Virus record (IMG/VR): IMGVR_UViG_3300020455_000070 | Span: 1 to 29,555 of that record | Strand: one strand, 5' to 3' | Source: a virus | DNA: 29,555 nucleotides | In this document: piece by piece, positions 1 to 29,555 of the stretch | How positions within the stretch are numbered: position 1 is the stretch's first letter | Layout: the number at the start of each line of letters is the position of its first letter | Made by a program: the position numbers and the translations under genes | The notes under the pieces: model-generated | The model's input: only the letters and a program-made list of their open reading frames with translations | What the model was told of the DNA's origin: nothing | The model's database searches: none

Positions 1-191
1 CTGTTATACATTACTAAAATAGCTTGATAGTCTATATTTTGACCGAAAGCCCATGCTGGCAAATATTCCGTTAACATTGTGCTTTTTTGATGTTGCGGCG
101 GCATAAAAAGCATCAAAAAAGGGTGCTTGTCTGTCAAAATCCAATCTTGCAAAATCTTACAGACAAATTTATGATGCCAATTGAATGAAAA
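1..191. repeat. Left copy of the contig-end overlap
   Basis: Bases 1-191 match 29365-29555 except at six positions (42, 54, 57, 72, 78, 114). All six are third codon positions of the terminase frame and are silent. This is best read as the overlap of a circular assembly built from closely related strains, not as an identical terminal repeat. Confidence 0.93.
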
Positions 192-305
192 TTCAGGCGG
201 CGAAAGGTACCGAAGGAAAGTAAAAAAACATTTTCTTGCCTTCCTTTTTTCCCTTTCGTGTAATAATTCTAAATATTGCCTTTTATTTATCTTTTCGCCT
301 TTCAA
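1..305 (-). CDS. terL: Terminase large subunit, N-terminal part (continues at 29555)
   Basis: This is the upstream end of the large terminase, cut by the contig break. Joining position 1 to 29364 leaves the frame open and gives a protein of about 491 residues, a normal length for the family. No ATG occurs in this frame before the in-frame stop at 339-341; TTG at 303-305 is my preferred start, TTG at 312-314 is an alternative. The segment contains FNWHHKFVCKILQDW, the aromatic and basic stretch usual just before the terminase ATPase motif. The start overlaps the end of the small terminase gene by about 20 bases, which fits translational coupling. The exact start is uncertain; the frame is not. 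Confidence 0.85.
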   Translation of the reverse strand, partial: MKGEKINKRQYLELLHEREKRKARKCFFTFLRYLSPPEFSFNWHHKFVCKILQDWILTDKHPFLMLFMPPQHQKSTMLTEYLPAWAFGQNIDYQAILVMYN

Positions 306-684
306 ACTGTTCAATTTGTGCCTGTATTTCTGCGTCTGTCAGGGTTTCTTTGTCAAGTTTCACTGTCGTTTCTTGCTTGTCTTTGTAGTTGTGGTTATTC
401 TTCAAGTCAAATATAGCCCCAGCGGCGCTGTAATTGCCTGAAAGAAGCCCTTCAATTTTACTTTGTTGTATTTGTAGCCTGGCTCTTTTTATAGTGTCCA
501 AAAAGGGCTTTTTATTTTTGTCTGTGTAACCTTCATAATTTAGCAAGCTTTGACGGCTTGTAAAGTCCAGGGCTAAACAAAGGCCTTCAATAGTCAAAGG
601 CCTGTTTTCTTCTTTCTGCTGGTCAAAATATGCCTGAACCTTTGCTTGAAATTCTTCTATTGTTTGAAGCTTTTTTTTTGCCAT
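283..684 (-). CDS. terS: Terminase small subunit (DNA recognition for packaging)
   Basis: A 133-residue protein immediately upstream of, and overlapping, the large terminase. Residues about 28-60 (RPLTIEGLCLALDFTSRQSL) form a helix-turn-helix typical of phage DNA-packaging proteins, and residues about 80-100 (SGNYSAAGAIFDLKNNHNY) match the conserved end of that domain. The C-terminus is charged and helical, as expected for oligomerisation and contact with the large subunit. By family it recognises the packaging site and forms a ring that delivers DNA to the motor. It starts 4 bases after the stop of the 125-residue gene upstream. Confidence 0.85.
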   Translation of the reverse strand: MAKKKLQTIEEFQAKVQAYFDQQKEENRPLTIEGLCLALDFTSRQSLLNYEGYTDKNKKPFLDTIKRARLQIQQSKIEGLLSGNYSAAGAIFDLKNNHNYKDKQETTVKLDKETLTDAEIQAQIEQFERRKDK

Positions 685-687
685 TTT

Positions 688-1065
688 TTATTTGTTTCTT
701 TCTTGGTGTGCCTGAATGCAAAGTTGAATAAACTTAGAAATTTCAATACCTATTTTTATTCCCTGTACAACTAATTTTTCAGAAGTTTCAGAATTTAATC
801 CTTTTACGTTTTTTGTAACGTCATTAATTATTGATTGGCTGTAAGATTCACTGTCTTTAAATTTAAGCCACTCTTCGGGAATATCTTTAAGCCCTTTAAT
901 AATTCCAGGCAATTTTATTGCATTGTCCCAAAGGGCCAAAGCTTCGGCAAAAGTGAATTTTTTATCTTCAAGGTCTTTAGCTATTTCAACACCTAATTCA
1001 ACAGCCCAATTTAAAGTATTTTGAAGGCTGTTTGTTTCTTTTTTTGCTTTTTTTTCTTTTTTCAT
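688..1065 (-). CDS. Unknown 125-residue protein upstream of terminase
   Basis: The protein begins with a Lys/Glu-rich stretch followed by predicted amphipathic helices (NWAVELGVEIAKDLEDKKFT; IKLPGIIKGLKDIPEEWLKF) and ends in another helix. No signal peptide, strong membrane segment or catalytic motif is visible. It lies between the lysis enzyme and small terminase, 4 bases before terS, so it should be expressed with the late genes. Helical proteins of this size are common beside lysis and packaging genes in Bacteroidota phages, but I cannot assign a role. Confidence 0.7.
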   Translation of the reverse strand: MKKEKKAKKETNSLQNTLNWAVELGVEIAKDLEDKKFTFAEALALWDNAIKLPGIIKGLKDIPEEWLKFKDSESYSQSIINDVTKNVKGLNSETSEKLVVQGIKIGIEISKFIQLCIQAHQERNK

Positions 1066-1113
1066 TTTATTTTATCTGTTTAAGTTGTTTATAATATACA
1101 AAAAAAAATTGTT

Positions 1114-1314
1114 TTAGTCGTCTTCTTGAAAAGTATTATTGAATTTACTTTGTAAAATTTCGTTTTCTGTTTGCCGGTCTTGAATTTTGCAGAATGTCAA
1201 AAGGCTATTCATTTTTTTGTGAAAATCAGCAATTAAATTTTCAAGCAAAATAATTCTTTCTTTTTGGTGCTGGTTTTCTTTAATCAGTATTTTTATTTTT
1301 TCGCTTTTGTTCAT
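1114..1314 (-). CDS. Small coiled-coil protein
   Basis: A 66-residue protein whose first 40 residues have heptad-like spacing (KIKILIKENQHQKERIILLE), followed by a polar tail ending in Glu-Asp-Asp. Its ATG directly abuts the stop of the glucosaminidase gene (1315), so it is probably translationally coupled to it. The pairing suggests an accessory to lysis, but there is no membrane segment or lipobox, so a spanin is not supported. Function unknown. Confidence 0.65.
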   Translation of the reverse strand: MNKSEKIKILIKENQHQKERIILLENLIADFHKKMNSLLTFCKIQDRQTENEILQSKFNNTFQEDD

Positions 1315-2124
1315 TTAATTAAATCTTTTCAAGTTGTATTTTTTAATTACTGCTTTTAATTTGTCAGCGTAACAGGTGCCTTTATAACAGCTTGTTGCAT
1401 AAACTGTGCCGCCGTTTTGAACGTGCTTTTTTGATTGCTCAACAGTCAAGCCGCCGCACAAAGCAAAAAGCCATTTTTCAAGGGTTGGCTTTCCTTTTAT
1501 TCGTTTTCTATATTTTAAAAGTAAATAGCTATGACTTCTTAAACAGTGCCATTTTGAAACGTAATTTGAAAACCTGTCTTTGTCGCTGTCATCTTTTGCA
1601 ATAGTGAAGCCTTTTGTAAATTTTCGGTTCTTTCTGTGCTTGTGTCCAAATAAATTATTTGAAGCGGCCAGCTTTGAAAGTCCAAAATTGCTTTCAATTA
1701 TTGCCTGTGCTATTACCAGGGCCGCCGGAATATCTTTAAATCTTTTCAAGTTGTATTCTTTTTGTGCTTCTTTGCCTATCCAATCAATAAAAATTTCAAT
1801 GTGTTTAACCTTCCAGGCTTTAAACCTGGCTTTTGTTTTTGGGTTTTTTATATGTTGGCCTTTCCATTCTGAAGAAGAAAGCCAAAGCGGCCGGCGTTGT
1901 GGTATTCCTGAATCGTTATATTTTGCGGCGGCTGGTTTTTTGTCGTGCCTTCCTGGGTAAATTTCTGCTTTTATTTTGCTGTGCTTTGTTGTCTTTTGTG
2001 CTGTTATATTTTGCGGCTGGTAAGCGTCATATTTATTTTTAAAGCTGCTAAAGCCGTAATAAATCAAAGTAAATACTAAAATAAAAACTAATAACTTTAA
2101 AATTCTATTAATTAGCTTAGTCAT
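1315..2124 (-). CDS. Membrane-anchored glucosaminidase (probable endolysin)
   Basis: A 269-residue peptidoglycan hydrolase of the glucosaminidase (LytG/FlgJ-like) type, which cleaves glycan strands next to N-acetylglucosamine. Residues 9-23 are a hydrophobic membrane anchor (signal-anchor type) after a short basic start. Residues about 40-105 are a basic linker. The catalytic domain starts near 110 and contains LVIAQAIIESNFGLSKLA, with Glu144 the likely acid, then SNNLFGHK and FSNYVSKW, the usual order. It is the first gene after a strong promoter at 2310-2342 and has two tandem copies of an AACACAACAA leader directly before its ATG. It probably lyses the host; the anchor could allow holin-controlled release. 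Confidence 0.85.
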   Translation of the reverse strand: MTKLINRILKLLVFILVFTLIYYGFSSFKNKYDAYQPQNITAQKTTKHSKIKAEIYPGRHDKKPAAAKYNDSGIPQRRPLWLSSSEWKGQHIKNPKTKARFKAWKVKHIEIFIDWIGKEAQKEYNLKRFKDIPAALVIAQAIIESNFGLSKLAASNNLFGHKHRKNRKFTKGFTIAKDDSDKDRFSNYVSKWHCLRSHSYLLLKYRKRIKGKPTLEKWLFALCGGLTVEQSKKHVQNGGTVYATSCYKGTCYADKLKAVIKKYNLKRFN

Positions 2125-2125
2125 T

Positions 2126-2146
2126 TTGTTGTGTTTTTGTTGTGTT
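2126..2146 (-). promoter_or_regulatory. Tandem AACACAACAA translation-leader motif
   Basis: In the sense direction two copies of AACACAACAA (2137-2146 and 2126-2135) stand just before the glucosaminidase ATG. The same 10-mer precedes five other starts (3679, 5359, 7549, 7977, 10844). Bacteroidota translation favours A-rich unstructured leaders rather than Shine-Dalgarno pairing, so this may be a translation enhancer; that role is inferred. Confidence 0.6.
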
Positions 2147-2160
2147 ATTAAAAATAAAAA

Positions 2161-2256
2161 AAGAAAAGCCGCTTTTAATAAGTTGAAACGACCTATTGAA
2201 ACAATCCTATTGTTAAAAAATTTAATTTGATTTAATTTAATTTTGCGGCTTTTCTT
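2161..2256. repeat. Perfect 12-bp inverted repeat, 72-base loop
   Basis: AAGAAAAGCCGC at 2161-2172 is the exact reverse complement of 2245-2256. The GC-rich core stands out in very AT-rich DNA. It lies in the leader between the promoter and the glucosaminidase ATG, so it can fold in the mRNA. Confidence 0.8.
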
Positions 2257-2266
2257 ATGTTTTAAA

Positions 2267-2353
2267 AAACAAAGGGCATGCCGTCACCTTATAAATATTT
2301 ACTATATATCAAACCTATTAAAAAATAAATTTATAAAACAAAGCCCTTTGTTT
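2267..2353. repeat. Perfect 11-bp inverted repeat flanking the promoter
   Basis: AAACAAAGGGC at 2267-2277 is the exact reverse complement of 2343-2353. The pair brackets the -33 and -7 boxes, with the right arm overlapping TTTG. This suggests paired operator half-sites or a looping repressor, though an RNA role is possible. Confidence 0.75.
2310..2342 (-). promoter_or_regulatory. Bacteroidota-type promoter for lysis/packaging genes
   Basis: On the minus strand TTTG (2342-2339) is followed after 21 bases by TAGGTTTG (2317-2310), an exact match to the TAnnTTTG -7 box with the -33 TTTG element. Transcription would start near 2300-2305 and run into the glucosaminidase, the packaging genes and possibly the whole late operon across the contig junction, because no other interval wide enough for a promoter follows until the head genes. 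Confidence 0.65.
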
Positions 2354-2458
2354 ATATCTTAAAAAAGGAAAAAAGAAATTTTAGTCTTAAAAAATTAAAT
2401 TATCTAATTAATGTTAGAAAAATAATAATTGTTTTTATTTCTTAATTCCTTTTATTTT

Positions 2459-2593
2459 TTAAACCTTTTGAAAAATCTTTTTACAATTTGAACATCTTAA
2501 TTTTTTTGTAAAATCACAGCCGGTTTTGTTTATAATTTGGCGTAGTAATTTTTCGCAAATTGGGCATTTTGGCCGCTTCTGTTTTTTATTCAT
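2459..2593 (-). CDS. 44-residue zinc-ribbon protein
   Basis: A short gene that is easy to miss. ATG at 2593-2591, TAA at 2461-2459, 45 codons without interruption. It encodes two Cys pairs in zinc-ribbon spacing, CPIC and CSNC, separated by about 18 residues, in a Lys-rich protein. Its start overlaps the end of the preceding gene by 8 bases, as expected in this tightly packed operon. Four well-spaced cysteines in such a short reading frame make a chance origin unlikely. Small zinc ribbons in phages often bind nucleic acid or RNA polymerase; the specific role is unknown. It is the last gene of the replication operon. Confidence 0.7.
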   Translation of the reverse strand: MNKKQKRPKCPICEKLLRQIINKTGCDFTKKLRCSNCKKIFQKV

Positions 2594-2810
2594 TTTGTAA
2601 ATTATAATTGTTTATGTCAAAAATTACAGCATCAAAATACAAAAATAATTCTGTTTTTGTTTTAAAAATCATTCTTTCTTTTTCTTGCCGGACAAAAACA
2701 AGCATTATTTCAGGATTAACAAAAACCGGTTCTTTGTCTTCAGGGCTTCCGGGCCTGTGCTTTTTTGCTGTTCTTATTTGCTTTGTATTTATTACCTGGC
2801 CTTCAATCAT
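2586..2810 (-). CDS. Unknown 74-residue protein of the replication operon
   Basis: The start overlaps the stop of the 290-residue replication gene by the four-base ATGA arrangement (2807-2810), showing translational coupling. The protein begins with a basic Lys/Arg/His stretch (TKQIRTAKKHRPGSPEDKEP), then has a beta-like hydrophobic segment (PEIMLVFVRQEKERMIF). No catalytic motif or membrane segment. Function unknown. Confidence 0.65.
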   Translation of the reverse strand: MIEGQVINTKQIRTAKKHRPGSPEDKEPVFVNPEIMLVFVRQEKERMIFKTKTELFLYFDAVIFDINNYNLQNE

Positions 2811-3679
2811 TTTAAAATACTTTTAATAATTAATAGCCGGCTATATTCATTAACAACAGCCGCTTTAAAGTTTTTAGTTTCAATCCCTTCTTTTAATTCT
2901 TTTAAAAGATTTCTAACTTGCATTTTTTCAGAAGCTTTTACTTCATTTTGAAGAAGCTTTTTTTTGTATTCGTTTTTTGTTTTTTGCTTTGCCTGGTTAT
3001 AAATTTCAAGCTTTTCTTTTTCTGTAAAGTCAATAATTTTTTCTTCAAGCAATATTTTTGCCCAAAATGCCTTAATTATGCCTTCTTTTAATTCTCCTTT
3101 GTCAATATACCTTTTTTTTATTTCGCTGTAAATTTGGGCTATTTGTTTTCTAATTTCAGTGTTTTTTGCTTCCTTGTTTACATCTTCAGCCCGGCTTTCT
3201 TCAATTTGCTTTAAATTTTCATATTTTGCTAAGCATTTTTTTCTAAATTCAATATAAGCTTTTAATACTTTGCCAAGTATTTGAACAGAAAATTTTCCGT
3301 AATAGGTTTCAATGTTAAGCCCTTGAAACCTTCCGGCGGCCGCCATTTTGAAAGCTTCTTTTAATTCTTCAGGCGCTAATTGTGGGAACATAGTACAAAC
3401 AAATTCAGCCGAAGCTTCAATAATTTGTTTGTTTTGTTCAGTTATCGGAATTTTAAAATTTGCGGCTGTGTAAGTATTTGCTAAAAAAAGAATTGCAAGC
3501 TTTAGGTTTTTATATAGTTCTTCTATTGCTTCGGGGTCGTTACTTTTTAAAATGCTTCTAATGTTGCAGATATTAGAGTTCAGTATTATTGAAATAGTCT
3601 TTGGTGGCGCTTGCACCTGTTGACAAATAGTCAGCATATTCTTTGTATAAGCTTTTTGTGTTGTCAGCTGTTTTTTCAT
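2807..3679 (-). CDS. Putative replication partner / helicase-loader-like protein
   Basis: A 290-residue, almost wholly helical, Lys/Glu-rich protein immediately downstream of the replication initiator and overlapping it by 107 bases. Residues about 90-125 (FPQLAPEELKEAFKMAAAGR, then GLNIETYYGKFSVQILGKVL) resemble the helical N-terminal part of proteins that load the replicative helicase. No Walker A is visible, so it is not a DnaC/DnaI-type ATPase; a lambda P-like or purely adaptor role is more likely. The C-terminal half (about 150-260) is likely coiled coil. The ATG is preceded directly by AACACAACAA (3681-3690). Function is inferred mainly from position. Confidence 0.55.
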   Translation of the reverse strand: MKKQLTTQKAYTKNMLTICQQVQAPPKTISIILNSNICNIRSILKSNDPEAIEELYKNLKLAILFLANTYTAANFKIPITEQNKQIIEASAEFVCTMFPQLAPEELKEAFKMAAAGRFQGLNIETYYGKFSVQILGKVLKAYIEFRKKCLAKYENLKQIEESRAEDVNKEAKNTEIRKQIAQIYSEIKKRYIDKGELKEGIIKAFWAKILLEEKIIDFTEKEKLEIYNQAKQKTKNEYKKKLLQNEVKASEKMQVRNLLKELKEGIETKNFKAAVVNEYSRLLIIKSILK

Positions 3680-5070: not shown

Positions 5071-5103
5071 TTGGTTTGATTTTTTTATTGTTTGAAAAAA
5101 AAT

Positions 5104-5121
5104 AGGAGGGTTACCCCTCCT
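5104..5121 (-). terminator. Rho-independent terminator
   Basis: A 7-bp GC-rich stem (5104-5110 AGGAGGG with 5115-5121 CCCTCCT) with a 4-base loop is followed in the minus direction by TATTTTTTTT. It ends the early operon 11 bases after the stop of the 75-residue gene. Confidence 0.85.
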
Positions 5122-5131
5122 TTGTTGATTG

Positions 5132-5359: not shown

Positions 5360-5400
5360 AATTTTGATTTTTTTTGTTGTGTTAATAATTAAGTACAATA

Positions 5401-5432: not shown

Positions 5433-5522
5433 TTTTTACGCGTTTTATTTCAATGTTTTTTTGTTTTATTTCATAAATACTTGATAATCAGTAAAACTTT
5501 TTTTAATTAAATTTTATATTTT

Positions 5523-6548: not shown

Positions 6549-6557
6549 ATTATTTTT

Positions 6558-6755: not shown

Positions 6756-6759
6756 GCTT

Positions 6760-18329: not shown

Positions 18330-18547
18330 TGTCGGGCCAGGCTTCGCATTACTCCAATAACTTTCGACCTACAACCGCCGCAGCTTTCTTGTTGTTGGTC
18401 GTGTTTTGATGCAATATATTTATTATAAACTTCAAATAAATAAGTTTGATGTTTTGAAGGACAAAAAGGTAAAAACTTTTCAACGTGTTCAATAACTTCA
18501 ATAATATCTTTAAATATTTCACGCGGTATTCTGTGATTAATAGCCAT
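18302..18547 (-). CDS. Unknown 81-residue protein with CGGC motif
   Basis: Small helical protein with a Cys-Gly-Gly-Cys motif near residue 58 (ESCGGCRSKVIGVMRSLARQ) after a helix. The start abuts the tape measure stop (18549). A single CxxC suggests redox or metal binding by a dimer. Similar small proteins are frequent next to tape measure genes in Bacteroidota phages, but the role is unknown. Confidence 0.55.
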   Translation of the reverse strand: MAINHRIPREIFKDIIEVIEHVEKFLPFCPSKHQTYLFEVYNKYIASKHDQQQESCGGCRSKVIGVMRSLARQWKQQETNF

Positions 18548-18548
18548 T

Positions 18549-21464
18549 TTACAAAGTTGTTAACGTGTTTAAAGTGCTGTCATTATCTTGCAAGTCTTGT
18601 AAATTGTTTAAATCCTGGACAACTTGCAGCCGGTCAATTCTTGCATTTATTGCCGCTGTTCTGTCTTCAGAAGCTTGTAAAAATTGCTGAAAAGTTGTAT
18701 TTATTCCGCCAGCCTGGCCGCCTTGTGGCGCTGTTAATACTTCGCCTAATATTCCGCCGTCTGCAAAAGACTTGCCGCCGCCGGCCCGGTTCAAAGCTGA
18801 TAGAATAGGCTTAAACATTTTTGTACTTTTTTTATTTATTACAGCTTCGCCGCCTTCCAATTCTCCGAATCCTGTCTGTATTCCGCCGGCACTGTGGGCC
18901 GGGCCTTTTAATATTCCGCCTTTTGCAAATTTTTGGCTTGATATGGTCGCAATCTGTACGGCTGTTGCTACGGCTGTAGCTGCCGCTGCTATAAATGAAG
19001 CCGGCGGCGGAAGTGTGAAAGCATTGGCAATACCTAAAGCGGCGGCAATTATAGCCTGTGTTATTGCAATTGCTTTCTGTGTTTCTGCTTGTTTCTTCCG
19101 GGCTTTTTCTCTGTTTTCTGTTTCTTTTTTAAGTGCTTCTTCTTCCTGTTCTACTTGCTGAAGCAAAAACTTTTTTTGAAGTCCGGTCGCTGCTTGAAGG
19201 TCTTCGTTTAAATTTGTAATATTTTGCTTTCTATTTTCAATTGCCTGTTCAAAGCGTGCATTTTCCGCCTTAAAAGCAAGCTCTGAAATGTCGGCAATTG
19301 CTTGAATTGTAACATTTACGGCGTTTACTATTGCCGCCGTTGTTTGTTTTCTTATTTCTGCCTTCTTTTCTTCTGTTGCCTTTGCGTCTTCAATTTCTTT
19401 TTTGTCTGCTTCTTCTTCTGCTTTGTCAATTTTTACCTGTTGTTTGTCACGTTCTTCTATAAAGTCAGTAAATTCAGCCTTCCAGGCGGCGGCTTTCTTT
19501 TCTGTTGCTGCCTGTTTTATGTCTTTAATTTCTGCTTCATGCTGTTTTAGTTGTGTTTGCTTTACTTCGTTTCCTTTTTGTTGCAAAGCAATTATTTCAT
19601 TATTAGACTTTGTTTCAAGGTCTTTAATTTCTGCTTTGCTTAATTTTTCCAATTCCAGCCGCTTTTTAAGTGCTTCTTTTTCTTTTTGTATAAGCGTGTC
19701 AATTTCTTTTTGAAGCTGTGCCTGTTCTTTTTCAAAATCAAGCTGCTTCTGTGCTAATACTTTTTTGTTATTGTCTTTTATTGCATCAATTTCAAGCTGT
19801 GCAAGTTCAGCACTTAATTTCAAAAGCAAGCTTTGCCGCCCTTTGGCGTTCTGTTCCATGCTTTTTTTAAGGTCTGCTTCTGCCTTTTTCCGGTCTGCTT
19901 CTTTTTGTTTTGCAACGGCTGCGGCTTCTTTTTTTGCTGCTTCAATTGCCGCCTTTTTTGCTTCTTCTGCCGCTTTTTGTTCTTCTTCTGTTTGTTTTTC
20001 TTTAAATTTTGAAGTGTCGAAGCCTTCAGCTTTTATAACTTCATTAAGGGCCTTTTTTTCCTGTTCAATTTGGGCCAAAAGTGTTTTATTTTGTTTTATT
20101 CTTTTTTCATTGTTTTTAATATATGACTTTACCGATATTAAAGCGGTATTCATGCCTTCTTTGCTGTTTGTTGTGCCGGTTTTTACTGCTTCTTGCCTTT
20201 CTTCTTCTAATCTTATAGCGTTTCTATTAAGTGCCGCTTCTTCCCTTAATGCAGCTAAACGGCGTTTTGTTATGTCAATGAAATTTTCTTCTGTTGCCAG
20301 CAATAAAATCTTTTGTTCAAAGGCTTTGTTTCCGGCCAGCTGTGCCGCTGTTATTTCTTCAAGGGTTGAATTTTCATCTAATAAGTCCGGTAAATAATCC
20401 TTATATTTTTTGTTTATGTCTTCAATTAGCTGCTTTCTTGCTTCCTGTGATATGTTGCCCCGTTTTAATGTTTCTATTTCAGCATTAAATTGGTGCTGTA
20501 AATCTTCAACGCCCTTAGAAGCTTTTTTTGCCCCCAGGTCAATACCAAAAAGCCCTTTTGAAACAAATTCAAGGCCATTTAAAAAGCCTTTTAAAGGCCC
20601 GGCCACAACATCAATAAGAAACATTCCAAGTTTTTCTAAAATAGCAGAAACCCGGCCAAAGCTTTCAGATAAAGAACGGGCTGCTTCAGAACCTTCTTTG
20701 TTCTTGTCTACAAGCCGCTTAATTGCCCCGCCTATTTTTCTAATGCCCTGGGCTATTCCACGACCTATAAAAATTGCACCGGCCGCCTTTCCTAATTTTC
20801 CCAAAGAAGAAGCATAATTTCCAACATTCCGCCGGTTGTCGCCGGTCTGTTTTTCCAACTTTTTCAGCTGGTTTGTTAATGCTTTCTTTTGTTGTATAAC
20901 TTGTTTGGCTGTTTTGCCTGTTTTTTCATTTACTTTATTGCTTTTTATTTCTTCTTTTGTAAGTTTTTTCCATTGTATTGTAGTTAAAGCCAGCTTTGCT
21001 CTTAATTTTTCAATTTGGCCGCTTTCTTTGCTTGTTAAAATTGCTGTTTGTTTAGCAATTTGCTGCCGTTCCCGGTTTGCCAGCTTTAACTTTTGTTTTG
21101 TCTGTAATTCTTTGTCAGTTAAAACAATTACTTCTTTTTTTGTCTTTTGTGCCTTCTTTTCTTCAGCCCCGGCTGCCTTTACGGCCTTTGTAACTTCTTT
21201 ATATTCAGAACCTAATTTTTTAACAACCTTATTGCCATTGTCAAAGGTTTTAAAGCTTTTTGAAATAGCTGTTCCGGCTGTTTGTGCTGTTGTGCCAAAT
21301 TGTTTTAGCTGCCTTTCTGCTGTTCCTGAAACGCTGTAAATTTCTGCAAGGGTTCCAGCTACTAAAATTAATTGAGTGTTCAAAAGGCCCATTAATTTAG
21401 TGACTTTTGTTATGTCTTTTTGGCCTTTTATTTCTATTTTAAAGCCAACTATTTTTTCAGCCAT
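18549..21464 (-). CDS. Tape measure protein
   Basis: A 971-residue protein, by far the longest gene, with long coiled coils (roughly 90-215 and 450-790, Lys/Glu/Gln/Ala-rich), a hydrophobic region at about 225-310 and an Ala-rich membrane-like stretch at about 797-843 (FIAAAATAVATAVQIATIS). The C-terminal end has Gly-rich repeats typical of tape measures (KGGILKGPAHSAGGIQTGFG; GGEAVINKKS; FADGGI). It sets tail length and helps DNA pass the membrane. At about 0.15 nm per residue the tail would be near 145 nm, supporting a siphovirus. Confidence 0.9.
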   Translation of the reverse strand: MAEKIVGFKIEIKGQKDITKVTKLMGLLNTQLILVAGTLAEIYSVSGTAERQLKQFGTTAQTAGTAISKSFKTFDNGNKVVKKLGSEYKEVTKAVKAAGAEEKKAQKTKKEVIVLTDKELQTKQKLKLANRERQQIAKQTAILTSKESGQIEKLRAKLALTTIQWKKLTKEEIKSNKVNEKTGKTAKQVIQQKKALTNQLKKLEKQTGDNRRNVGNYASSLGKLGKAAGAIFIGRGIAQGIRKIGGAIKRLVDKNKEGSEAARSLSESFGRVSAILEKLGMFLIDVVAGPLKGFLNGLEFVSKGLFGIDLGAKKASKGVEDLQHQFNAEIETLKRGNISQEARKQLIEDINKKYKDYLPDLLDENSTLEEITAAQLAGNKAFEQKILLLATEENFIDITKRRLAALREEAALNRNAIRLEEERQEAVKTGTTNSKEGMNTALISVKSYIKNNEKRIKQNKTLLAQIEQEKKALNEVIKAEGFDTSKFKEKQTEEEQKAAEEAKKAAIEAAKKEAAAVAKQKEADRKKAEADLKKSMEQNAKGRQSLLLKLSAELAQLEIDAIKDNNKKVLAQKQLDFEKEQAQLQKEIDTLIQKEKEALKKRLELEKLSKAEIKDLETKSNNEIIALQQKGNEVKQTQLKQHEAEIKDIKQAATEKKAAAWKAEFTDFIEERDKQQVKIDKAEEEADKKEIEDAKATEEKKAEIRKQTTAAIVNAVNVTIQAIADISELAFKAENARFEQAIENRKQNITNLNEDLQAATGLQKKFLLQQVEQEEEALKKETENREKARKKQAETQKAIAITQAIIAAALGIANAFTLPPPASFIAAAATAVATAVQIATISSQKFAKGGILKGPAHSAGGIQTGFGELEGGEAVINKKSTKMFKPILSALNRAGGGKSFADGGILGEVLTAPQGGQAGGINTTFQQFLQASEDRTAAINARIDRLQVVQDLNNLQDLQDNDSTLNTLTTL

Positions 21465-21467
21465 TGT

Positions 21468-23630
21468 TTAAGATGTTAATAATGAAACAACCGAAGAAAG
21501 AAGGCTGTTTTCAATGTTATTTAAATTTTCTGTTCCAGGTGCAACGTCTACATAAAATGTAAATTTTGTGGGGCTATCCTTTAAAGGGTTAAAGCCGGTT
21601 ATTTGTTGCACTATGTATTTTTTTGAATCAATATAAGCTTTTTCCCTAAATGAAAAATTTATAAAATCTAAAGAATTAAATTTTATATAATTATTTCTAA
21701 TTTCTCCAGTGTCGTTCCTGGTCATTTGCTGAAGGTAAAAGTTTTGTAAAAGGCCAGGGCTTTCAATGCCGTTTATTGTCTGTGTATCAAATCCAATATT
21801 CGGGTCTAAGCCGCTGCTGTCGTTATAATTTACCATAAAGGCAACCGGAACCGCTGCCGGGCTGCCAAGGTATTCAAATAATTCTATTGTGCCGTCGTTA
21901 TCGGCCCAGCTGCCGCCGGTTCTTTGCCCGGCAAAATATAAAATTCTTGGGCTTATTTCTTCGGCCTTTGGGCCTGTTGTCGCTGTTGGGTCTAAAATGT
22001 AATTCTGTGAATATATAAGCGGAAATTGTGGCACTGTGTTTGTATTTGGATATTTTGCCAGGTGGTCTAAGACATGTATAGTTTTAACAAAGAAAGGCAC
22101 TTCAATTTTTTCTGTTTTTGTAAGGTCTGCGCCTGTTAAAATTTGGTATTTTGATTGATATATTTTTAAAGGGTTTGAACCTTCAACAAATTCAATAGTT
22201 GTTTCAAAAGAATCTGCTTTATATTGAAAATCATAAACGCCAGGCAAAGCCGGAAATTCAAAACTTCCTTCTTTGTTATAGTCTATTATTTTACTATAAT
22301 CTTTTTGTATAGATGTTTTATAAAAGCCTTCTGTTTTTTGGTCAACTGTTGCCGGGTATCTTGCTGTTTCCTTATATGTATCTTTGGGTTCTATTGTTAC
22401 AACTTTTGAAAATTCATCTGTTTGAAAGTCTAAATTAAACATTGCTTTTAAGCCTTTGAGCATATCTAAAAAAGCCCAATCCCGAAGCAAGAATTTAAAA
22501 TCTATTTCAAAGCCAGGCCCCGGCACAGCTTCGCCAATAAAAGAAGCGTTTCCGCTTATTATTTGGACATTTGAACCGGATAAATTCCAGGTTAAAACAT
22601 CGCCAGCAGAAGCATAAACAACGCCTGAAGCTGTAAGATTTTGACCGGCGGCCGGATATGCTGGCGCAATATGAGAAAAAGCAAAACCAACATTTGGAAC
22701 AACCGGCGTGCCATTTTGAAATAAGTATATAATAAAGAAAAAAGTACCTGGCGGAACAGCTGCGGCAAATTCTAAACTAATACTACATTCATAATAACCG
22801 GTTAAAGGTGCTGTATATTCATAATTGGTTATATTGTCGTATGCTGTCGGGTTTTGTGGTGCTGCTGTGTCTATTGTGTCAAAAGGCATATTTGTTAAGC
22901 CTGTAACAGAATAAGGCGCAGACAACGAAACAAAAGTATTTAAAAATTCATCATTATAGCCCCTGGGCATTTTTTCAGGAAAAGGCAAAGGCAAAACAAG
23001 TTTTGAAAATAAATCTGTATCAAAAAAAACACTGTTTATCGTATAGCCTATATTTTTAAATGCCTGAACAATTAAAGGCTTTATAAATAGCGCTGGCGTG
23101 CTTTCATATATTGAAGGTTGATATTGAATATTGGGCGCCGTTCCGGTGCTGTTTGCCCATTCTTTAAACTTTATTAATAAAAAAGCAAATTCTTGGCTTG
23201 AAGGGCTTGAAACAAAGCCGGCTAAAATGTTTGTTGAATTAAAAGTTTTTACAACATCTGTAAGTTCTGAAAGCAAAGTATTGCCAAGCAAAACAAACCA
23301 TGAAGAATTATTTGAAATTAAGTTCAATTCAAAATTTTCTTCTTGCGCTTCATATCCAAAAGAAAAAGTTTTAGCTTTCTTTATTTGTGCTGTTCCTGAA
23401 AAGCTTGGCGCGCCGTCTACTTCAATTCTAAAAGGCCTGTATATTTTAGTTTTTCCTAATATGTTTATATTGTTTTTTGTTGCCGGAACCTTTACAGAAA
23501 CGCGCGAAAAATCGCCTTGAGTTTTGCCTTCTACAGTGTTAATTCTTTTTGTAATATTAAGCGGCAAATCTTCAGCGCTGTAAAGGTCAATTTCTTTATT
23601 ATCAATAAAAAGCTTAGTATAATTGTTCAT
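21468..23630 (-). CDS. Large tail-tip / baseplate-hub-like protein
   Basis: A 720-residue, beta-rich structural protein next to the tape measure. It opens with a short beta segment (YTKLFIDNKEIDLYSAEDLP) and an element (KRINTVEGKTQGDFSRVSVK) found in tail-tip proteins of Bacteroidota phages. A middle region about 260-370 is rich in Pro, Gly and aromatic residues like a beta-sandwich insertion, and the remainder (LKAMFNLDFQTDEFSKVVTI and after) resembles hub domains. No enzyme motif is seen. Likely forms or binds the distal tail with the amidase encoded just upstream. Confidence 0.6.
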   Translation of the reverse strand: MNNYTKLFIDNKEIDLYSAEDLPLNITKRINTVEGKTQGDFSRVSVKVPATKNNINILGKTKIYRPFRIEVDGAPSFSGTAQIKKAKTFSFGYEAQEENFELNLISNNSSWFVLLGNTLLSELTDVVKTFNSTNILAGFVSSPSSQEFAFLLIKFKEWANSTGTAPNIQYQPSIYESTPALFIKPLIVQAFKNIGYTINSVFFDTDLFSKLVLPLPFPEKMPRGYNDEFLNTFVSLSAPYSVTGLTNMPFDTIDTAAPQNPTAYDNITNYEYTAPLTGYYECSISLEFAAAVPPGTFFFIIYLFQNGTPVVPNVGFAFSHIAPAYPAAGQNLTASGVVYASAGDVLTWNLSGSNVQIISGNASFIGEAVPGPGFEIDFKFLLRDWAFLDMLKGLKAMFNLDFQTDEFSKVVTIEPKDTYKETARYPATVDQKTEGFYKTSIQKDYSKIIDYNKEGSFEFPALPGVYDFQYKADSFETTIEFVEGSNPLKIYQSKYQILTGADLTKTEKIEVPFFVKTIHVLDHLAKYPNTNTVPQFPLIYSQNYILDPTATTGPKAEEISPRILYFAGQRTGGSWADNDGTIELFEYLGSPAAVPVAFMVNYNDSSGLDPNIGFDTQTINGIESPGLLQNFYLQQMTRNDTGEIRNNYIKFNSLDFINFSFREKAYIDSKKYIVQQITGFNPLKDSPTKFTFYVDVAPGTENLNNIENSLLSSVVSLLTS

Positions 23631-23635
23631 GGCTT

Positions 23636-24214
23636 TTATAAATAGTTAACTGTTTTTATTATTGTGTTATAAATCCAAGCTGTACACTTCCGGCGGCCTT
23701 CATCTGTTAAAAGAATTTCTTTACATTCTTTTTCTGTGTCCATGAAAAAGCATTCAAATAAAACAGCCGGGCAGCGTGTTTTTGCTATTACTGTAAAATT
23801 TTTCTTTTTTATTCCGCGCCAGCGGTATGAAGGAAAAACTTTTTTATATTCTGCTTGGGCTGTTTCGGCTATTAGTTCACTTCTTCGGCTGGCATTTTCA
23901 GAAATAAAAATTTCTGAACCTGTGCCGCCGCCGGCGTTAGCATGAATAGAAATATAAAAAGCGTTTTCAATTTCATTTGCCCGCCTTACTCTTTCATTTA
24001 AAGAAATGTCTTCTGTTTCCGGGTTTATATCTACATAGTTTATTTTATCTGCTGTTAATAGTTCTATAAGCCGCCCTTTTATAGCCCGGTTGAATTCTCC
24101 TTCAAACAGCTGCGCGCCGTCGGCCCAAATAGGGCTTCGTTTTCCTGGCGTGCAATAAAACCCATTAATTACAGAACCATGTCCGCTGTCCAAAATTACA
24201 GTCTTTAAAGCCAT
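23636..24214 (-). CDS. N-acetylmuramoyl-L-alanine amidase (Amidase_3 type)
   Basis: A 192-residue zinc amidase that cuts the bond between muramic acid and the peptide stem. Likely zinc ligands are His12 in LDSGHGS, Glu40 in FEGEFNRAI and His91 in YISIHANAGG; Glu154 in AVLFECFFMD is the catalytic acid. No signal peptide or cell-wall-binding domain is present. It lies inside the tail operon between two large tail proteins, 5 and 6 bases from its neighbours, so it may act as a virion-associated enzyme for entry, while the separate glucosaminidase handles lysis. A role in lysis is also possible. Confidence 0.85.
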   Translation of the reverse strand: MALKTVILDSGHGSVINGFYCTPGKRSPIWADGAQLFEGEFNRAIKGRLIELLTADKINYVDINPETEDISLNERVRRANEIENAFYISIHANAGGGTGSEIFISENASRRSELIAETAQAEYKKVFPSYRWRGIKKKNFTVIAKTRCPAVLFECFFMDTEKECKEILLTDEGRRKCTAWIYNTIIKTVNYL

Positions 24215-24218
24215 TGTT

Positions 24219-25490
24219 TTAAATTCTTTGTATTATCAAATCATTTGCCAATTTAACAACTATTTCAAAGCGTATTTTTCCAGCCTGTGAAAAAGTTTTC
24301 TGTTCTTTGTTTTGTATAATTACCGGCACAAAATCGCCGTCAATTTCTGCATAAACTTTAGGCGAAGTGAGCAATTCAGAAAGCCAGGCCGCCTTTTCAT
24401 TTGTTAAAAATCTGCTTTTTACCTTGTAAGAATTTGAACCGGTGCTTTTTGTTTTGAAGCTGCCGCTGTCTGTTGTTAAATCAGGCGCAGAAGTTCCGGC
24501 CGTATAATTTAAAGCTTTCTTTGCGGCTGTGCTTTCAGCTTTTAAATTCAATTCTTTTTCACTATTAAAAGTATAAGAGTCTAAGCCGCCCAGCATGTTT
24601 ATAAAATGAAGTTTTAAATCTCTAAGGGAACAACAGCTATTTTTTATTTTATATACTGCTGTTTCTGTTTTGTCTGTATGTACCCAGGTAGGCCCAACAA
24701 GAACCATTTCGCCAAAAGAAACAGCATAATATTTTATTAATGGGTCGTTAAAATTTGGTGCGCCTTGTACATAAGTTTTAGTTGCTAAAACATCAAAGCC
24801 AACATTTAAAGAAGCCTGTTTAAATCCTGTTGTTAAAAAAGTTTGTGCCAAAGCATCATATAAAACAGCTAACGAAGAATTTAAAAGCTGTACACGAAGC
24901 CCGGCATAAGGTAAAACAGAATTTTTTTGAATGAAAGAAAGATATAAATTTTCATCTTTGCAAGTTGGCAAAAAAGAAAGATTTTGCTTTGTCAAAAATT
25001 TTGTTTGTGTATATGGTGCAACGTTGCCAACATAATCATATAAAAATTTAATTTCTTGGTGCTTTCTGCTTGCTGAAAAAATTGTATAAGTGTTTGAAGT
25101 ATCCGAAACAGCCGGCACAGCTTCCAAAATTCCAGCTGTTGAAATTCTTTCGTAAGTAATTTCAATATGATAATCTGCGTAAAAATCTGTATTATCAATA
25201 ACAAAATTATTTTGTACAAGGCTTTTAGGCGCTCCGGTGTCCGGGCCTAAAGAATCCTGGACATATTTTTGTATATCTATATTGAAATAATAGTCTACTT
25301 GGGGCGGCGAAAACCCTACTTGATTAAAAAAGCTTTTATATTTTACTGTTGCAATTAATGAACCATTTTTATAAATCTGTACAACGGCATTTTCTGCCGG
25401 CGTCGCTGCTGGCTGCGTTACATAAACTGTAAATTTTACAGGCCTGTAAGCCGGTAAAACTACAAAAGGCGGCTGAAGTGCTAAGGGCAT
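24219..25490 (-). CDS. Beta-rich tail protein, unknown
   Basis: A 423-residue, low-charge protein rich in beta strands (RPVKFTVYVTQPAATPAENA; VQIYKNGSLIATVKYKSFFN). Near residue 290 is LKLHFINMLGGLDSYTFNSE, a segment I associate with large structural proteins in Bacteroidota phages. The C-terminal third (KSRFLTNEKAAWLSELLTSP) reads like a small alpha/beta domain. It lies with the amidase and tail-tip protein and is likely a distal tail or adhesion component. The exact part is not known. Confidence 0.6.
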   Translation of the reverse strand: MPLALQPPFVVLPAYRPVKFTVYVTQPAATPAENAVVQIYKNGSLIATVKYKSFFNQVGFSPPQVDYYFNIDIQKYVQDSLGPDTGAPKSLVQNNFVIDNTDFYADYHIEITYERISTAGILEAVPAVSDTSNTYTIFSASRKHQEIKFLYDYVGNVAPYTQTKFLTKQNLSFLPTCKDENLYLSFIQKNSVLPYAGLRVQLLNSSLAVLYDALAQTFLTTGFKQASLNVGFDVLATKTYVQGAPNFNDPLIKYYAVSFGEMVLVGPTWVHTDKTETAVYKIKNSCCSLRDLKLHFINMLGGLDSYTFNSEKELNLKAESTAAKKALNYTAGTSAPDLTTDSGSFKTKSTGSNSYKVKSRFLTNEKAAWLSELLTSPKVYAEIDGDFVPVIIQNKEQKTFSQAGKIRFEIVVKLANDLIIQRI

Positions 25491-25493
25491 AAT

Positions 25494-25778
25494 TTAATAT
25501 ATTTTATTATATTCAACGTTCCAGGCTGTTACAAAATCGCGCTCTTTGTGTTCAGGGCTGAAACATTTTGAAGTTATGATTGCAAAATTATTCTGTTTTT
25601 CTGTATCTGCATTGTTAAATTCTTCTAATTTGTCCGCCGGAATTGTCGCAACAAAATAATTTGATAATTGACCACAGACAGAAATTATTGACTCATTAGC
25701 GCCGGCTTTTTTGTAGTTTTCGTTTACACTTTCGGCGGCTGCCTGTGCCTGTTCTTTTGTTAGTTGTTGAAGTATCAT
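25494..25778 (-). CDS. Unknown 94-residue protein of the tail operon
   Basis: A small protein with helix EQAQAAAESVNENYKKAGAN, then beta-like SVCGQLSNYFVATIPADKLE and a Cys-containing C-terminal part. It is coupled to the upstream gene by the four-base overlap 25775-25778. It could be a small tail assembly component; no motif is recognised. Confidence 0.55.
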   Translation of the reverse strand: MILQQLTKEQAQAAAESVNENYKKAGANESIISVCGQLSNYFVATIPADKLEEFNNADTEKQNNFAIITSKCFSPEHKERDFVTAWNVEYNKIY

Positions 25779-26287
25779 TTTTTATTTATGTTTAGGCTTT
25801 CAATAAGCATTTTTTGTAATGCGTTTTGAAAGAAGTTTTCAATAAGTTGTTCAATTTTCCTTTCATTTGCTTTTAAAACATTGTCAATAAATCCGGTTTT
25901 CCTGGTCAAAGGGTAGCCCTTTTGTTTTTGCTTTGTGGCTATTGCAAAAGCAATTCCTTTCGCTTTCTTTTTTGTTACACCAAATTTAAGTTGCGCAAAT
26001 TTTATTAAGCCTTGAATGTATTTAGACCTTCCGCCCCGGTATGGCGGAACAGATGTAAAAGGAATCCTGGCCGGGCTTATTCCGTTATTAAGCGAAAGGC
26101 CATAAGAAAGCATTAAAAATTTTATTATTGTTTTTTCTGTCTGCTGTTCAATTTTTGCTTCAAAACTTTTTGAAAGTGCGCCTGTTAGTTTGTGACCTTG
26201 CCGAAGCAATTCTTCAGCCAAATTTTCAAAAATAAATTTTGCTAAAATTTCAGAAAGTTTTTTAATATGTAAATTTTGCTGTTCCAA
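25775..26287 (-). CDS. Putative tail-completion (HK97 gp10-like) protein
   Basis: A 170-residue basic protein with the pattern of neck/tail-completion proteins: an N-terminal helix followed by RQGHKLTGALSKSFEAKIEQ, a variable middle with Arg/Gly (PPYRGGRSKYIQGL), and TRKTGFIDNVLKANERKIEQ near the end, where such proteins usually have a Gly-Phe turn and a long helix. Next to a putative tail-terminator gene. Assignment is moderate; sequence similarity in this family is low. Confidence 0.5.
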   Translation of the reverse strand: MEQQNLHIKKLSEILAKFIFENLAEELLRQGHKLTGALSKSFEAKIEQQTEKTIIKFLMLSYGLSLNNGISPARIPFTSVPPYRGGRSKYIQGLIKFAQLKFGVTKKKAKGIAFAIATKQKQKGYPLTRKTGFIDNVLKANERKIEQLIENFFQNALQKMLIESLNINKK

Positions 26288-26296
26288 ATCTAAAAA

Positions 26297-26869
26297 TCAA
26301 ATAAAGTTTAAGTTGTTTTCAAGGTCTTTTCTTTCTATATATTCCGGTAATGCTGAAAGTTCTATTTTATGTCTTTCGGCGGTGCATTGTGCAACATGTG
26401 ACAAAATAAAAGAAACTTGAAAAGTAATTAATTTATCATTATGCAAGTTTGCCCGGGGTTCATATCGGGGCTGTGTTCTTATAAATCCTATGTTATAATA
26501 TTCTAAAACCTGGGCCAGGTTACAAATAAAATCTTCTGCAATTTGTTTAACATCTGCCCATTGTTCAATAAGTGTTTTTATTATTTGGCTGCCGCTGTTG
26601 TCGTAGCCTTGTAAATCATCAAAATATAAGTTTATAGATATATCTTGATTGAATCCAAGATAGTTTTCTTCTTGTGTCGGTTCGAAGTAATCAGGAATGT
26701 CAAAATGAAGGGCCGGAAACATTCGGCCGCTGCTGTTGCCTGGGTCGAAGTTATTATCAATATTTTTGTTTATGTCAGAACGCCAACCAAAATGATAAAA
26801 TTTAAGGCGGCTGTCTGCCTGTGTCATTAGGTTAAAAATATTTGATATTTGTATTATTGTAGTATTCAT
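26297..26869 (-). CDS. Putative tail terminator-like protein
   Basis: A 190-residue protein located with the tail-completion-like gene. It has an N-terminal helix, then strands (ALHFDIPDYFEPTQEENYLG; DISINLYFDDLQGYDN), a long helix (SQIIKTLIEQWADVKQIAED) and ends with FQVSFILSHVAQCTAE. This alpha/beta order resembles tail terminators that cap the tube. Its ATG overlaps TGA of the -1 frame of the upstream gene (26866-26869), good evidence that the frame-shifted reading upstream is really used. Confidence 0.5.
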   Translation of the reverse strand: MNTTIIQISNIFNLMTQADSRLKFYHFGWRSDINKNIDNNFDPGNSSGRMFPALHFDIPDYFEPTQEENYLGFNQDISINLYFDDLQGYDNSGSQIIKTLIEQWADVKQIAEDFICNLAQVLEYYNIGFIRTQPRYEPRANLHNDKLITFQVSFILSHVAQCTAERHKIELSALPEYIERKDLENNLNFI

Positions 26870-27728
26870 TTTTCTTTTGTTGTTTGTAGCTTTGAAAGTG
26901 CATTTTCAGCCGAAAGAAACAAAAAAGCTTGGTAAAGGTCTGCTTCTTCTGCCGCTTGTATGCTTGTTTTTCCGTTAATATCAAAAATTTTACTTTCTGC
27001 CAGGCGTTTAATAATTAAATACCAGCCGTATGTTTTTTCAATTGCTTTTGCCGTTTTTGTTGAATTTGCTGTTGTAGCGAATAAATCAGCAAATTGCTCT
27101 GTAATTCTTTGTTTAGTCGAAGCAAAAAAAAAGATACATTTATAATTTTATCCATACTCAATTTTTTAAAAAGCTTCTTTCTTGCTTCGTGCCTTCTTTT
27201 GTCATAGCTGTATTTTTCGCCGGGGGGCCGGCATAATACTGCCACAACATCCAGCATAGAAAGCCAGGCGCCGTTTTCAACTTCCTGGAAATTTTCTTGA
27301 AATTGGGCAGCTTCTGCAAATTCTGAAACTGTTGAACCTTCCATGTGCTGCGCCGGCAATATATACTCCTTTCCATTAATAGAAAAGCCTGTGAAGTTTT
27401 CATCCGCATTCATTTCCGAAAGGTCAATTTCAATAGTCCAAAAAGCCTTTTGAAGCTGCTGTAAATTCATGCTTTGTTCAATTTCTTCTTTATCAAGTCC
27501 GACCCAAAAGCCAACAGATAAAGCCATAAATTCAAAACATTTCAGCCGGTCTTTCTTTTTTAATTTCTTCCAGGCTTTTTCAAGGTCTTCAGATTCATAA
27601 AGATTTTTTAAAACTTCCGGCGTTTTTGGTGCTACGTCTGAAAGGTAATTCAAAAACTTTTCAAAAGTTACTTCTTGCCAATTTGCCGGTGTTTTATATT
27701 GCTTGCTGTTTAGTTCAAAGCTTATCAT
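26866..27728 (-). CDS. Tail-operon protein read with a -1 frameshift (tail assembly chaperone-like)
   Basis: Frame 0 starts at 27728 and stops at 27015 (237 residues), but its last 36 residues are Gln/Lys/Leu-rich and look out of frame. At a run of nine T (sense; 27132-27124) a -1 slip opens a frame of 86 further residues (FASTKQRITEQFADLFATTA, then KTYGWYLIIKRLAESKIFDI, then EADLYQAFLFLSAENALSKL) that ends with TGA overlapping the next ATG as ATGA. The combined product is about 287 residues. Tail assembly chaperones often use such slips, which fits the place in the tail operon. A one-base homopolymer error or true mutation would give the same picture. Confidence 0.65.
27124..27132 (-). promoter_or_regulatory. 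U9 slippery run, candidate -1 frameshift site
   Basis: Sense codons TCT TTT TTT TTG. Slipping one base back on the T9 run keeps U-U pairing throughout and enters the -1 frame. Ten T instead of nine would restore the frame without slippage. Confidence 0.5.
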
Positions 27729-28180
27729 TTCAATTCTTCTTTAAGTTGTTGAATTTCCGTTTTTGAATTGTCAGCTATTAAATTTTTATTTGGTTTTTCA
27801 ATTGCCTTTTTTATTTTGCTTTCATGAATCCAAAGCTTTTCAGAAATTTCATAAACAGTTAAACCTTCATAATACAAGGCCAAAACTTCAGCCTGTCTTT
27901 GTTTGTTCAAATATTTGTTTTCTTTCGGGCCTTTCTTTGTTTCCGCTGTAACTTCTTTTAATTCCGGCACAACTTCCGCCGGCCTTTTATAAGGGTTTGT
28001 CTTTGGCGGCGTATTGTCTGTTTTTGTCCTGGGCTTTCTATATCCTAACCGGTACAAAATCCGGCTTTGTACATTTAAATAATTTCTATAGTCTTTCTTT
28101 TCAAAAGCTGTTCCTTCAAAATTTTCAAGTTTCTTTTCAATCCAGGCCACAACTTCAAGCTGTTTTTCAATTAAGTTCAT
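27725..28180 (-). CDS. Helix-turn-helix protein after terminase
   Basis: A 151-residue protein; I start it at ATG 28180-28178, after the terminase stop (28194), because an in-frame start at 28225 would overlap terminase. The N-terminal half is helical (EKQLEVVAWIEKKLENFEGT) with a basic Pro-rich linker (about 60-85). Residues about 100-140 contain a clear HTH: RQAEVLALYYEGLTVYEISE then KLWIHESKIKKAIEK, like sigma-70 region 4 or resolvase HTH. It may bind DNA during packaging or regulate late genes. It is coupled to the next gene by a four-base overlap. Confidence 0.6.
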   Translation of the reverse strand: MNLIEKQLEVVAWIEKKLENFEGTAFEKKDYRNYLNVQSRILYRLGYRKPRTKTDNTPPKTNPYKRPAEVVPELKEVTAETKKGPKENKYLNKQRQAEVLALYYEGLTVYEISEKLWIHESKIKKAIEKPNKNLIADNSKTEIQQLKEELK

Positions 28181-28193
28181 TTTGTTTTTTTGT

Positions 28194-29555
28194 TTATAGT
28201 GTAATATAAGGGTTTGAACCTTCAATTAAATATTCAAAAATTGGATAACATAAAACGTCTATTTTGTCATCATGCTTAGCGTTTGGAAAAGCTTCCGCCT
28301 GTTGTATAAATGAATCTATCCAAGCGCCCCTTATAAGCTTAACGCGGCCCGAACGAAGGAAAGGTTCTATGCTTTCAACCCTGTTAAATTTTCCAAGTTT
28401 TACAAAGTTATTATTTATTCCGGTACAGTTCCAGCCGGATTTCAAAAGCAAATCTTCAAAAGCATATCCTGAAGCCTTCAGCTCAATTTGAATTAAACTT
28501 TCATTTGTTAGGCCGTTAAGCCTTGCAAAGCCTGAAAAGAAGGCTATGAAATCAGAAAGTTTTTTTCTGACGCCGGTTATATTGCGAATATACAAAATTT
28601 TTGCGGCTTTGTCAAAATAGCAAAAACAAAGCGCTGTTTCATCATTCTGCTTTTTTTCTGTCCAAGCGCCATCAATAAAACAAGACCAGGTAACAAAATT
28701 TATATTAAAAGGAAGCCTGTTTTCTTCTATTATTTCAAACCATTCGCCTTTTATCATGTCGCCGCCTTTGGCCGCCGGCCGCTGTTGATATAGCCCGGCA
28801 AAAGTTCGCGGCTGCTTCTGTTTTATTTCTTCTAATCTTTGGCGGCTGTGTAGTTGTGGAAAAAGTGCCTGGCCTATTTCTCGCGGGTCTTCTTTATTGC
28901 TGTTGTCTTCTTTCAGGGCTGGCAATTTAATGACTTTCCATTTGCCGCCGGCTTCTGTTGTGCCGTCTCGTTTTATTAGTCTTCCGGCCAGGTCGTCTTC
29001 ATGTCTTCGCGTTATTGTAAAAGCGACTTTTGAATCGTTATGAAGCCGGGCTTCAAGTTCATCTGTAAACCAATCAAATACTTTATTTCTGTAAGTTTGG
29101 CTGTTTGCTTCAGCTACATTTTTTATAACGTCATCCATGAAGGCAAGCTTTGCCGGGTTGCCAGCAATTCCGCCTTCAACGCCTACAGATTTAAGAAAGC
29201 CCCGGCCGCCGACAATTTCAAATTCTTCAGAATTTTTTATATAACTTTCTTTTGAAGCTGTTACAACATTTTTTTCATTTAGCTTTGTATTTGGAAAAAT
29301 TCGCCTGTACTTTTCAGACTGAATAACGCGCTGTATTTTTCTATTTTGCTTTTTTGCTTGGGTGCTGTTATACATTACTAAAATAGCTTGATAGTCTATA
29401 TTTTGGCCGAAAGCCCAGGCCGGCAAATATTCCGTCAACATCGTGCTTTTTTGATGTTGCGGCGGCATAAAAAGCATTAAAAAAGGGTGCTTGTCTGTCA
29501 AAATCCAATCTTGCAAAATCTTACAGACAAATTTATGATGCCAATTGAATGAAAA
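28194..29555 (-). CDS. terL: Terminase large subunit, main part (continues at position 1)
   Basis: ATPase and nuclease of the packaging motor. The TTG at 29514-29516 is internal, because the frame stays open to the contig end. The Walker A-like loop is FMPPQHQKSTM (the PP-x-HxKS type, with Gln where Gly is usual); Walker B is KLAFMDD; motif III is AFTITRRHEDDLAG. A linker follows (FAGLYQQRPAAKGGDMIKGE), then the RNase H-like nuclease with FIDGAWTEKK (Asp), IELKASGYAFEDLLL (Glu) and KHDDKIDVLCYPIFE (Asp pair near the end). It precedes a HTH gene. Total length with the wrapped N-terminus is about 491 residues. Confidence 0.92.
   Translation of the reverse strand, partial: FSFNWHHKFVCKILQDWILTDKHPFLMLFMPPQHQKSTMLTEYLPAWAFGQNIDYQAILVMYNSTQAKKQNRKIQRVIQSEKYRRIFPNTKLNEKNVVTASKESYIKNSEEFEIVGGRGFLKSVGVEGGIAGNPAKLAFMDDVIKNVAEANSQTYRNKVFDWFTDELEARLHNDSKVAFTITRRHEDDLAGRLIKRDGTTEAGGKWKVIKLPALKEDNSNKEDPREIGQALFPQLHSRQRLEEIKQKQPRTFAGLYQQRPAAKGGDMIKGEWFEIIEENRLPFNINFVTWSCFIDGAWTEKKQNDETALCFCYFDKAAKILYIRNITGVRKKLSDFIAFFSGFARLNGLTNESLIQIELKASGYAFEDLLLKSGWNCTGINNNFVKLGKFNRVESIEPFLRSGRVKLIRGAWIDSFIQQAEAFPNAKHDDKIDVLCYPIFEYLIEGSNPYITL
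29365..29555. repeat. Right copy of the contig-end overlap
   Basis: Repeats bases 1-191 with six silent differences in the terminase frame. See the left copy. It shows that the sequence closes on itself. Confidence 0.93.

Follow-up and report, generated by a model that had tools for sequence, protein, structure and literature searches.

Complete absence of GATC from a tailed-phage genome points to selection by a host GATC-cutting endonuclease

Avoidance of restriction sites by phages is well documented for GATC: in each of the 46 phages with a host that encodes a matching endonuclease, this word was found to be under-represented (Rusinov et al. 2018, PMC6286503). In the case of phage phiX174, the absence of GATC has been explained by mismatch repair and undermethylation (PMC5014478). 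Among the lactococcal 936 phages, as reported by Murphy et al. (2014, PMC4190342), close relatives differ by an acquired Dam-like orphan methyltransferase able to protect GATC.

The window analyzed here, a stretch of viral DNA of 29,555 bases, is ordinary in kind, as it is an instance of this avoidance, and the avoidance is real and strong. It resembles the phages of Rusinov et al. (PMC6286503) in that the palindrome of an endonuclease is nearly gone from a phage genome with no recognizable methyltransferase. The hosts in that study encode the enzyme, whereas the host of the window is placed as likely Bacteroidota; in addition, the window has an 86%-identical control with normal GATC, and this pair clearly differs in GATC alone. 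With phiX174 (PMC5014478), the window shares a GATC count of zero, about 20 sites being expected in phiX174, but the latter is small and infects E. coli, which has Dam/MutH, while the window is a tailed dsDNA phage with a probable Bacteroidota host. The clean control pair and a difference in a methyltransferase cassette, in which the two genomes recall the 936 phages, are the less ordinary aspects of this case. The control, L001, is an IMG/VR contig, a 17 kb fragment that shares 86% (85.6%) DNA identity with the window over 13 kb.

The window is a tailed-phage genome, and the recognized genes, all on the minus strand, encode a terminase, a portal protein, a Clp-type protease, a tape measure protein, lysis enzymes, a YqaJ exonuclease, a RusA resolvase, and a replication protein. 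The two ends of the contig share an overlap of 191 bases, the copies of which differ at six positions, none of them changing an amino acid in the terminase frame. The contig therefore probably represents one complete circle of about 29.36 kb in which two strain variants were joined during assembly. GATC occurs in neither copy of the overlap. The relevant features are the following:

1-29555, whole phage genome, about 29.36 kb plus the 191-base terminal overlap, with GATC on neither strand
2801-2830, minus strand, cassette junction, where two tandem D12 genes of L001 (L001:634-2207) are absent from the window
13423-14907, minus strand, portal protein (phrog_33693, E 5e-8)
16801-17973, minus strand, Clp-type head maturation protease (phrog_94, PF00574)
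18090-29555, minus strand, structural half, which together with 1-3436 holds the stretches aligned with L001 (18 GATC sites in L001, 0 in the window)
28194-29555, minus strand, terminase large subunit (phrog_38, E 6e-84; PF03237), with the remaining N-terminus in the overlapping copy at 3-314
L001:634-1413 and L001:1416-2207, tandem genes for D12 (Dam-superfamily) N6-adenine methyltransferases (PF02086)

An exact count on both strands gave no GATC in the 29,555 bases. GAT was followed by A in 41 cases, by T in 49, by G in 16, and by C in none, in agreement with the original prediction, which had described GATC as seemingly completely absent and roughly a hundred GAT occurrences as never followed by C. 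Its expectation of 80-100 GATC sites was too high because GAT itself is rare in the window, and fair expectations range from 13 to 35. Base composition predicts 90 sites, a first-order Markov (dinucleotide) model predicts 29.5 (35 with both strands pooled, hence about 30-35), and a second-order (trinucleotide) model predicts 12.9, a figure that is deflated because the missing GATC sites also reduce the counts of GAT and ATC. Shuffling of synonymous codons in 44 genes (500 shuffles) gave 33.8 +/- 4.8 sites, with a minimum of 22. The word is strongly depleted relative to the Markov and codon nulls (0 versus 12.9-35). The Poisson probability of finding no site is 2e-15 under the codon null and 2.5e-6 under the most conservative Markov null, so GATC is not low merely through dinucleotide or codon use, the outcome that would have refuted the prediction. 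That chance, or a codon, dinucleotide, or strand bias, produced the pattern has practically no probability left: the rarity of GAT and ATC does bring the expectation down from 90 to 13-35, but both P values speak against this explanation, as does L001, which has much the same composition and yet contains 20 GATC sites. Chance and codon bias were consequently rejected on the basis of codon shuffling and of the L001 comparison. Other four-base palindromes had been described as plentiful, which holds for GGCC (119) and AGCT (151); CATG (43) lies mildly below the first-order expectation of 72 and near the second-order one of 34.

Codon choice was found to depend on context. Before a C, aspartate is encoded by GAC in 44 of 44 cases and never by GAT, whereas elsewhere GAT is used 176 times and GAC 151 times (P about 4e-14). 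Serine codons following NGA are AGC or AGT (AGY) in all 19 cases and never TCN (P about 3e-8); in the window overall, TCN serine codons are commoner than AGY (299 versus 212). The Gly/Ser context goes in the same direction, as GGA never precedes a TCN serine codon, while the isoleucine frame says little, ATC being rare in any context. The depletion thus acts on the GATC word itself and not on codon use, the aspartate and serine choices switching where GATC would form.

The original prediction had also called for a comparison with related phages. L001 is the sole available close relative with normal GATC, and its number of sites is near expectation (20 observed versus 22 expected) where the window has none; the loss is therefore not a composition property of the whole clade. 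A comparison of the two genomes that covered every 4-6-mer and 1,528 degenerate palindromes yielded GATC as the only clear outlier (0 versus 20, P 1e-9); the other words at the top of the ranking either are AT-rich and follow composition or have P around 1e-3. None of the 18 aligned GATC sites of L001 is kept in the window, as against an average tetramer retention of 57% and a retention of 20-68% for the other palindromes (CTAG apart, which has 2 aligned sites only), and most of the 18 differences are silent changes. Three GATC sites are common to L001 and the outgroups, so the window lost at least these three sites, which its ancestor had; seven others are absent from the outgroups, which suggests that L001 also gained some. 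The window and L001 form an unusually clean natural control pair, clearly differing in one word, and such a pair could make it possible to attribute what this word costs a phage to one particular enzyme or methyltransferase cassette. Because of the codon-shuffle null, the codon-context switch, and the loss at every aligned L001 site, selection against the GATC word in the window is well supported.

Relatives were found with the terminase large subunit. The closest terminases outside IMG/VR are those of Flavobacterium phages (41-42%), and a search of GTDB genomes with a terminase profile led to one Saprospiraceae metagenome-assembled genome (MAG; 54%). Based on these matches, the host phylum is likely Bacteroidota. 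A search with the terminase of 396 Bacteroidota genomes returned nothing closer than the Saprospiraceae MAG, and the window DNA gave weak short matches only, none convincing, against 199 genomes of the family of this MAG.

The original prediction had ascribed the loss to a host restriction system cutting GATC and had proposed a search for the corresponding genes. Candidates were indeed found in the phylum to which the host likely belongs, Bacteroidota. Of the 396 genomes, 5 encode Sau3AI-sized proteins (about 463-514 aa) containing a MutH domain, and in two of these loci, read over their full length, a C5 methyltransferase gene adjoins. Full-length DpnII-like enzymes accompanied by a Dam-type methyltransferase are encoded by 2 of the 396. 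GATC-cutting enzymes therefore probably exist in this phylum, their specificity being read from family membership. We infer that the selecting agent was a GATC endonuclease, and we infer its type as well: the window has very probably been under sustained strong selection by one or more hosts, probably Bacteroidota, with a GATC-cutting restriction endonuclease of the Sau3AI or DpnII/MboI type. One or more of these hosts would carry the enzyme, and the phage, which has no recognizable DNA methyltransferase (the window lacks matches to the common families PF02086, PF00145, and PF01555, though hypermodified bases are conceivable), would escape cutting by losing GATC. The sites would have been removed mostly via silent codon changes until none was left. 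The part of the prediction that stands is thus selection against GATC, with an endonuclease as the best explanation given that such systems occur in Bacteroidota; the loss is not confined to a single palindrome, as described below.

Two other selecting agents were considered. For phiX174, which has no GATC and in which restored sites lower the mutation rate (PMC5014478), it has been proposed that the phage evades Dam/MutHLS mismatch repair or nicking by MutH. This is very unlikely for the window, as stand-alone MutH, which this explanation needs, is essentially absent from the 396 Bacteroidota genomes; their clear MutH-domain matches are all Sau3AI-sized (463-514 aa), next to one small partial match of 202 aa, and no D12 methylase was matched in the Saprospiraceae MAG. 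The second agent is a methyl-dependent enzyme of the DpnI type, cutting G6mATC, which avoidance of GATC would escape too. We give it a hardly better, still slim chance: if the D12 enzymes of L001 methylate GATC, L001 becomes a DpnI target.

The endonuclease explanation favored here bears on the second difference between the genomes, the methyltransferase cassette of L001. Apart from this cassette, whose gain or loss is exact, the two genomes are collinear. At the junction in the window, the upstream minus-strand gene (2807-3679) runs directly into the minus-strand gene at 2586-2810, and tblastn with both L001 methyltransferases gave no match in the window. The two L001 proteins contain a D12 domain (PF02086 scores of 73.3 and 67.9 bits, cut-off 22), and their best PDB matches include EcoDam, DpnM, and T4Dam. 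They are 74% identical to each other, with 91% DNA identity over the first 104 codons and a diverged target-recognition part (58%).

It is possible, if on balance doubtful, that both phages face the same host enzyme, L001 protecting its GATC sites by means of the D12 pair and the cassette-less window purging them, a reading that extends the endonuclease explanation rather than opposing it. In its favor are the exactness of the cassette difference and the membership of both proteins in PF02086 (73 and 68 bits), with Dam-type enzymes among their best structural matches. Moreover, L001 and the window avoid the same other words, GATC alone clearly differing, and a phage-encoded Dam protects a lactococcal 936 phage against DpnII, as reported in PMC4190342. 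The protection described there was shown by experiment, while the L001 proteins are known from sequence and do not show a Dam-like hairpin signature. Indeed, EcoDam, DpnM, and the methyltransferases of two DpnII systems from Bacteroidota (L109 and L110) have the FNVPxGxY recognition hairpin, whereas both L001 proteins lack it, and the scores of the L001 proteins against TIGR00571 (dam), 82 and 77 bits, fall below the curated cut-off of 115. In this family the middle part, which serves target recognition, is hypervariable, and strong GATC depletion was observed in 20 of the 57 phage loci in which a relative of these methyltransferases is encoded, so this family does not in general permit GATC. 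With one pair of genomes, a coincidence is also possible.

The family name was accordingly rejected as proof that the L001 methyltransferases are specific for GATC, given the missing hairpin and the frequent occurrence of relatives in GATC-depleted phages. The few loci with a target-recognition region closest to that of the second L001 methyltransferase have GATC at 1.1-1.7 of expected (L054, L040, and L052) or at 0/9 (L045), a set too small to tie such a region to normal GATC numbers. Chromosomal relatives have no recognizable endonuclease adjoining them and so do not reveal the specificity. The closest relatives in isolated phages are the D12 methyltransferases of Cellulophaga phage phi10:1 and Olleya phage Harreka_1 (66-68% identity), which differ from the L001 pair in being encoded by a single gene and in having a different target-recognition region. 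GATC is depleted in the examined stretches of both phages (L034 and L043), in which 40 and 39 sites would be expected but 7 and 14 are present.

An alternative for L001, to which we give an even chance, is that its hosts lack a GATC enzyme, the number of GATC sites having relaxed to neutral and the methyltransferases acting on other sites. This is at least as likely as protection by the cassette and leaves the endonuclease explanation of the window intact. The lack of a GATC signature in the L001 methyltransferases is consistent with it, as are the seven GATC gains of L001 relative to the outgroups, which fit relaxed selection, although protection by methylation would relax it too. However, L001 and the window avoid the same other words and hence probably have a similar host range. 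We consider it somewhat improbable that one lineage has been switching between two solutions to the same enzyme, with cassette gain leading to neutral GATC, and loss of the cassette, or never having had it, leading to a complete purge. If this were true, the tandem pair would be a GATC-protecting module with an unrecognized target-recognition region, and, should the cassette protect GATC, it could be tested directly whether methylation and avoidance are exchangeable counter-defenses ("methylate or avoid").

GATC is one of several words missing from the window. CTAG is almost as depleted (1 observed versus 23-52 expected), and the non-palindromic words CCTGC (0), CCAGA (1), and CCTC/GAGG (1 per strand) are depleted as well; the depletion of CTAG, CCTGC, CCAGA, and CCTC had been overlooked in the original prediction. 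The corresponding counts in the window and L001 are 0 and 0 for CCTGC, 1 and 0 for CCAGA, 2 and 2 for CCTC/GAGG (both strands), and 1 and 5 for CTAG. Since several words are missing and are common to relatives, the window seems to record a restriction history longer than one enzyme. More distant members of the clade lack other words: GGCC is absent from L007-L010, CCAGC from L002, L003, and L011, and GAAGAC, present 26 times in the window, from L002 and L011. The avoided set thus turns over within one phage clade (GATC, GGCC, CCTGC, CCAG, and others), which is the pattern expected of changing host restriction, and the words absent from phage genomes can be read as a record of which restriction enzymes their uncultured hosts carry. 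A near absence of GATC is itself not rare, as 8 of the 40 compared phage contigs of at least 15 kb have less than a tenth of the expected number of sites.

Several words besides GATC are scarce in the window when compared with the expectations of the Markov and synonymous-codon-shuffle nulls. CCTGC/GCAGG does not occur at all (35-47 expected), while CTAG and CCAGA are found once each (23-52 and 25-39 expected, respectively), CCAGT four times (14-31 expected), and CCTC/GAGG twice over both strands (13-74 expected). These depleted words are possibly non-palindromic restriction sites. It should be noted that the codons GAG and CTC are also rare in the window, with GAG accounting for 15 of the 722 Glu codons. 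Two other words are present in approximately threefold excess over the codon shuffle, namely CCAGG/CCTGG (92 vs 29) and CCGGC/GCCGG (147 vs 47), and both are also high in the close relative L001. The CCGGC count is 0 in the comparison contigs L005-L010.

In the more distant relatives L002 and L011, and also in contigs L003 and L004, CCAG is almost missing except before G. The combined counts for L002 and L011 were 0 for CCAGA, 0 for CCAGC, 1 for CCAGT, and 20 for CCAGG. L002 encodes the following feature:

L002, 2555-3697: C5 methyltransferase gene

This CCAG pattern could result from a CCWGG methyltransferase that spares the overlapping CCAG sites. GAAGAC, a BbsI-type site, is absent from L002 and L011, as compared with 26 occurrences in the window. 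GGCC, found 119 times in the window, has a count of 0 in contigs L007, L008, L009, L010, L012, L013, and L023-L026; for L008, 40 were expected.

Phage contigs often carry the D12 methyltransferase family represented by L001:634-2207. Across this locus and more than 50 IMG/VR loci, the N-terminus is near-invariant and the target-recognition region is hypervariable; the family looks like an exchangeable specificity cartridge.

Finally, positions 1-191 and 29365-29555 of the window form a terminal overlap of 191 bases. The two copies differ in six places, and none of these changes the terminase protein. The overlap is probably not an exact terminal repeat but the product of two strain variants that were merged during assembly.
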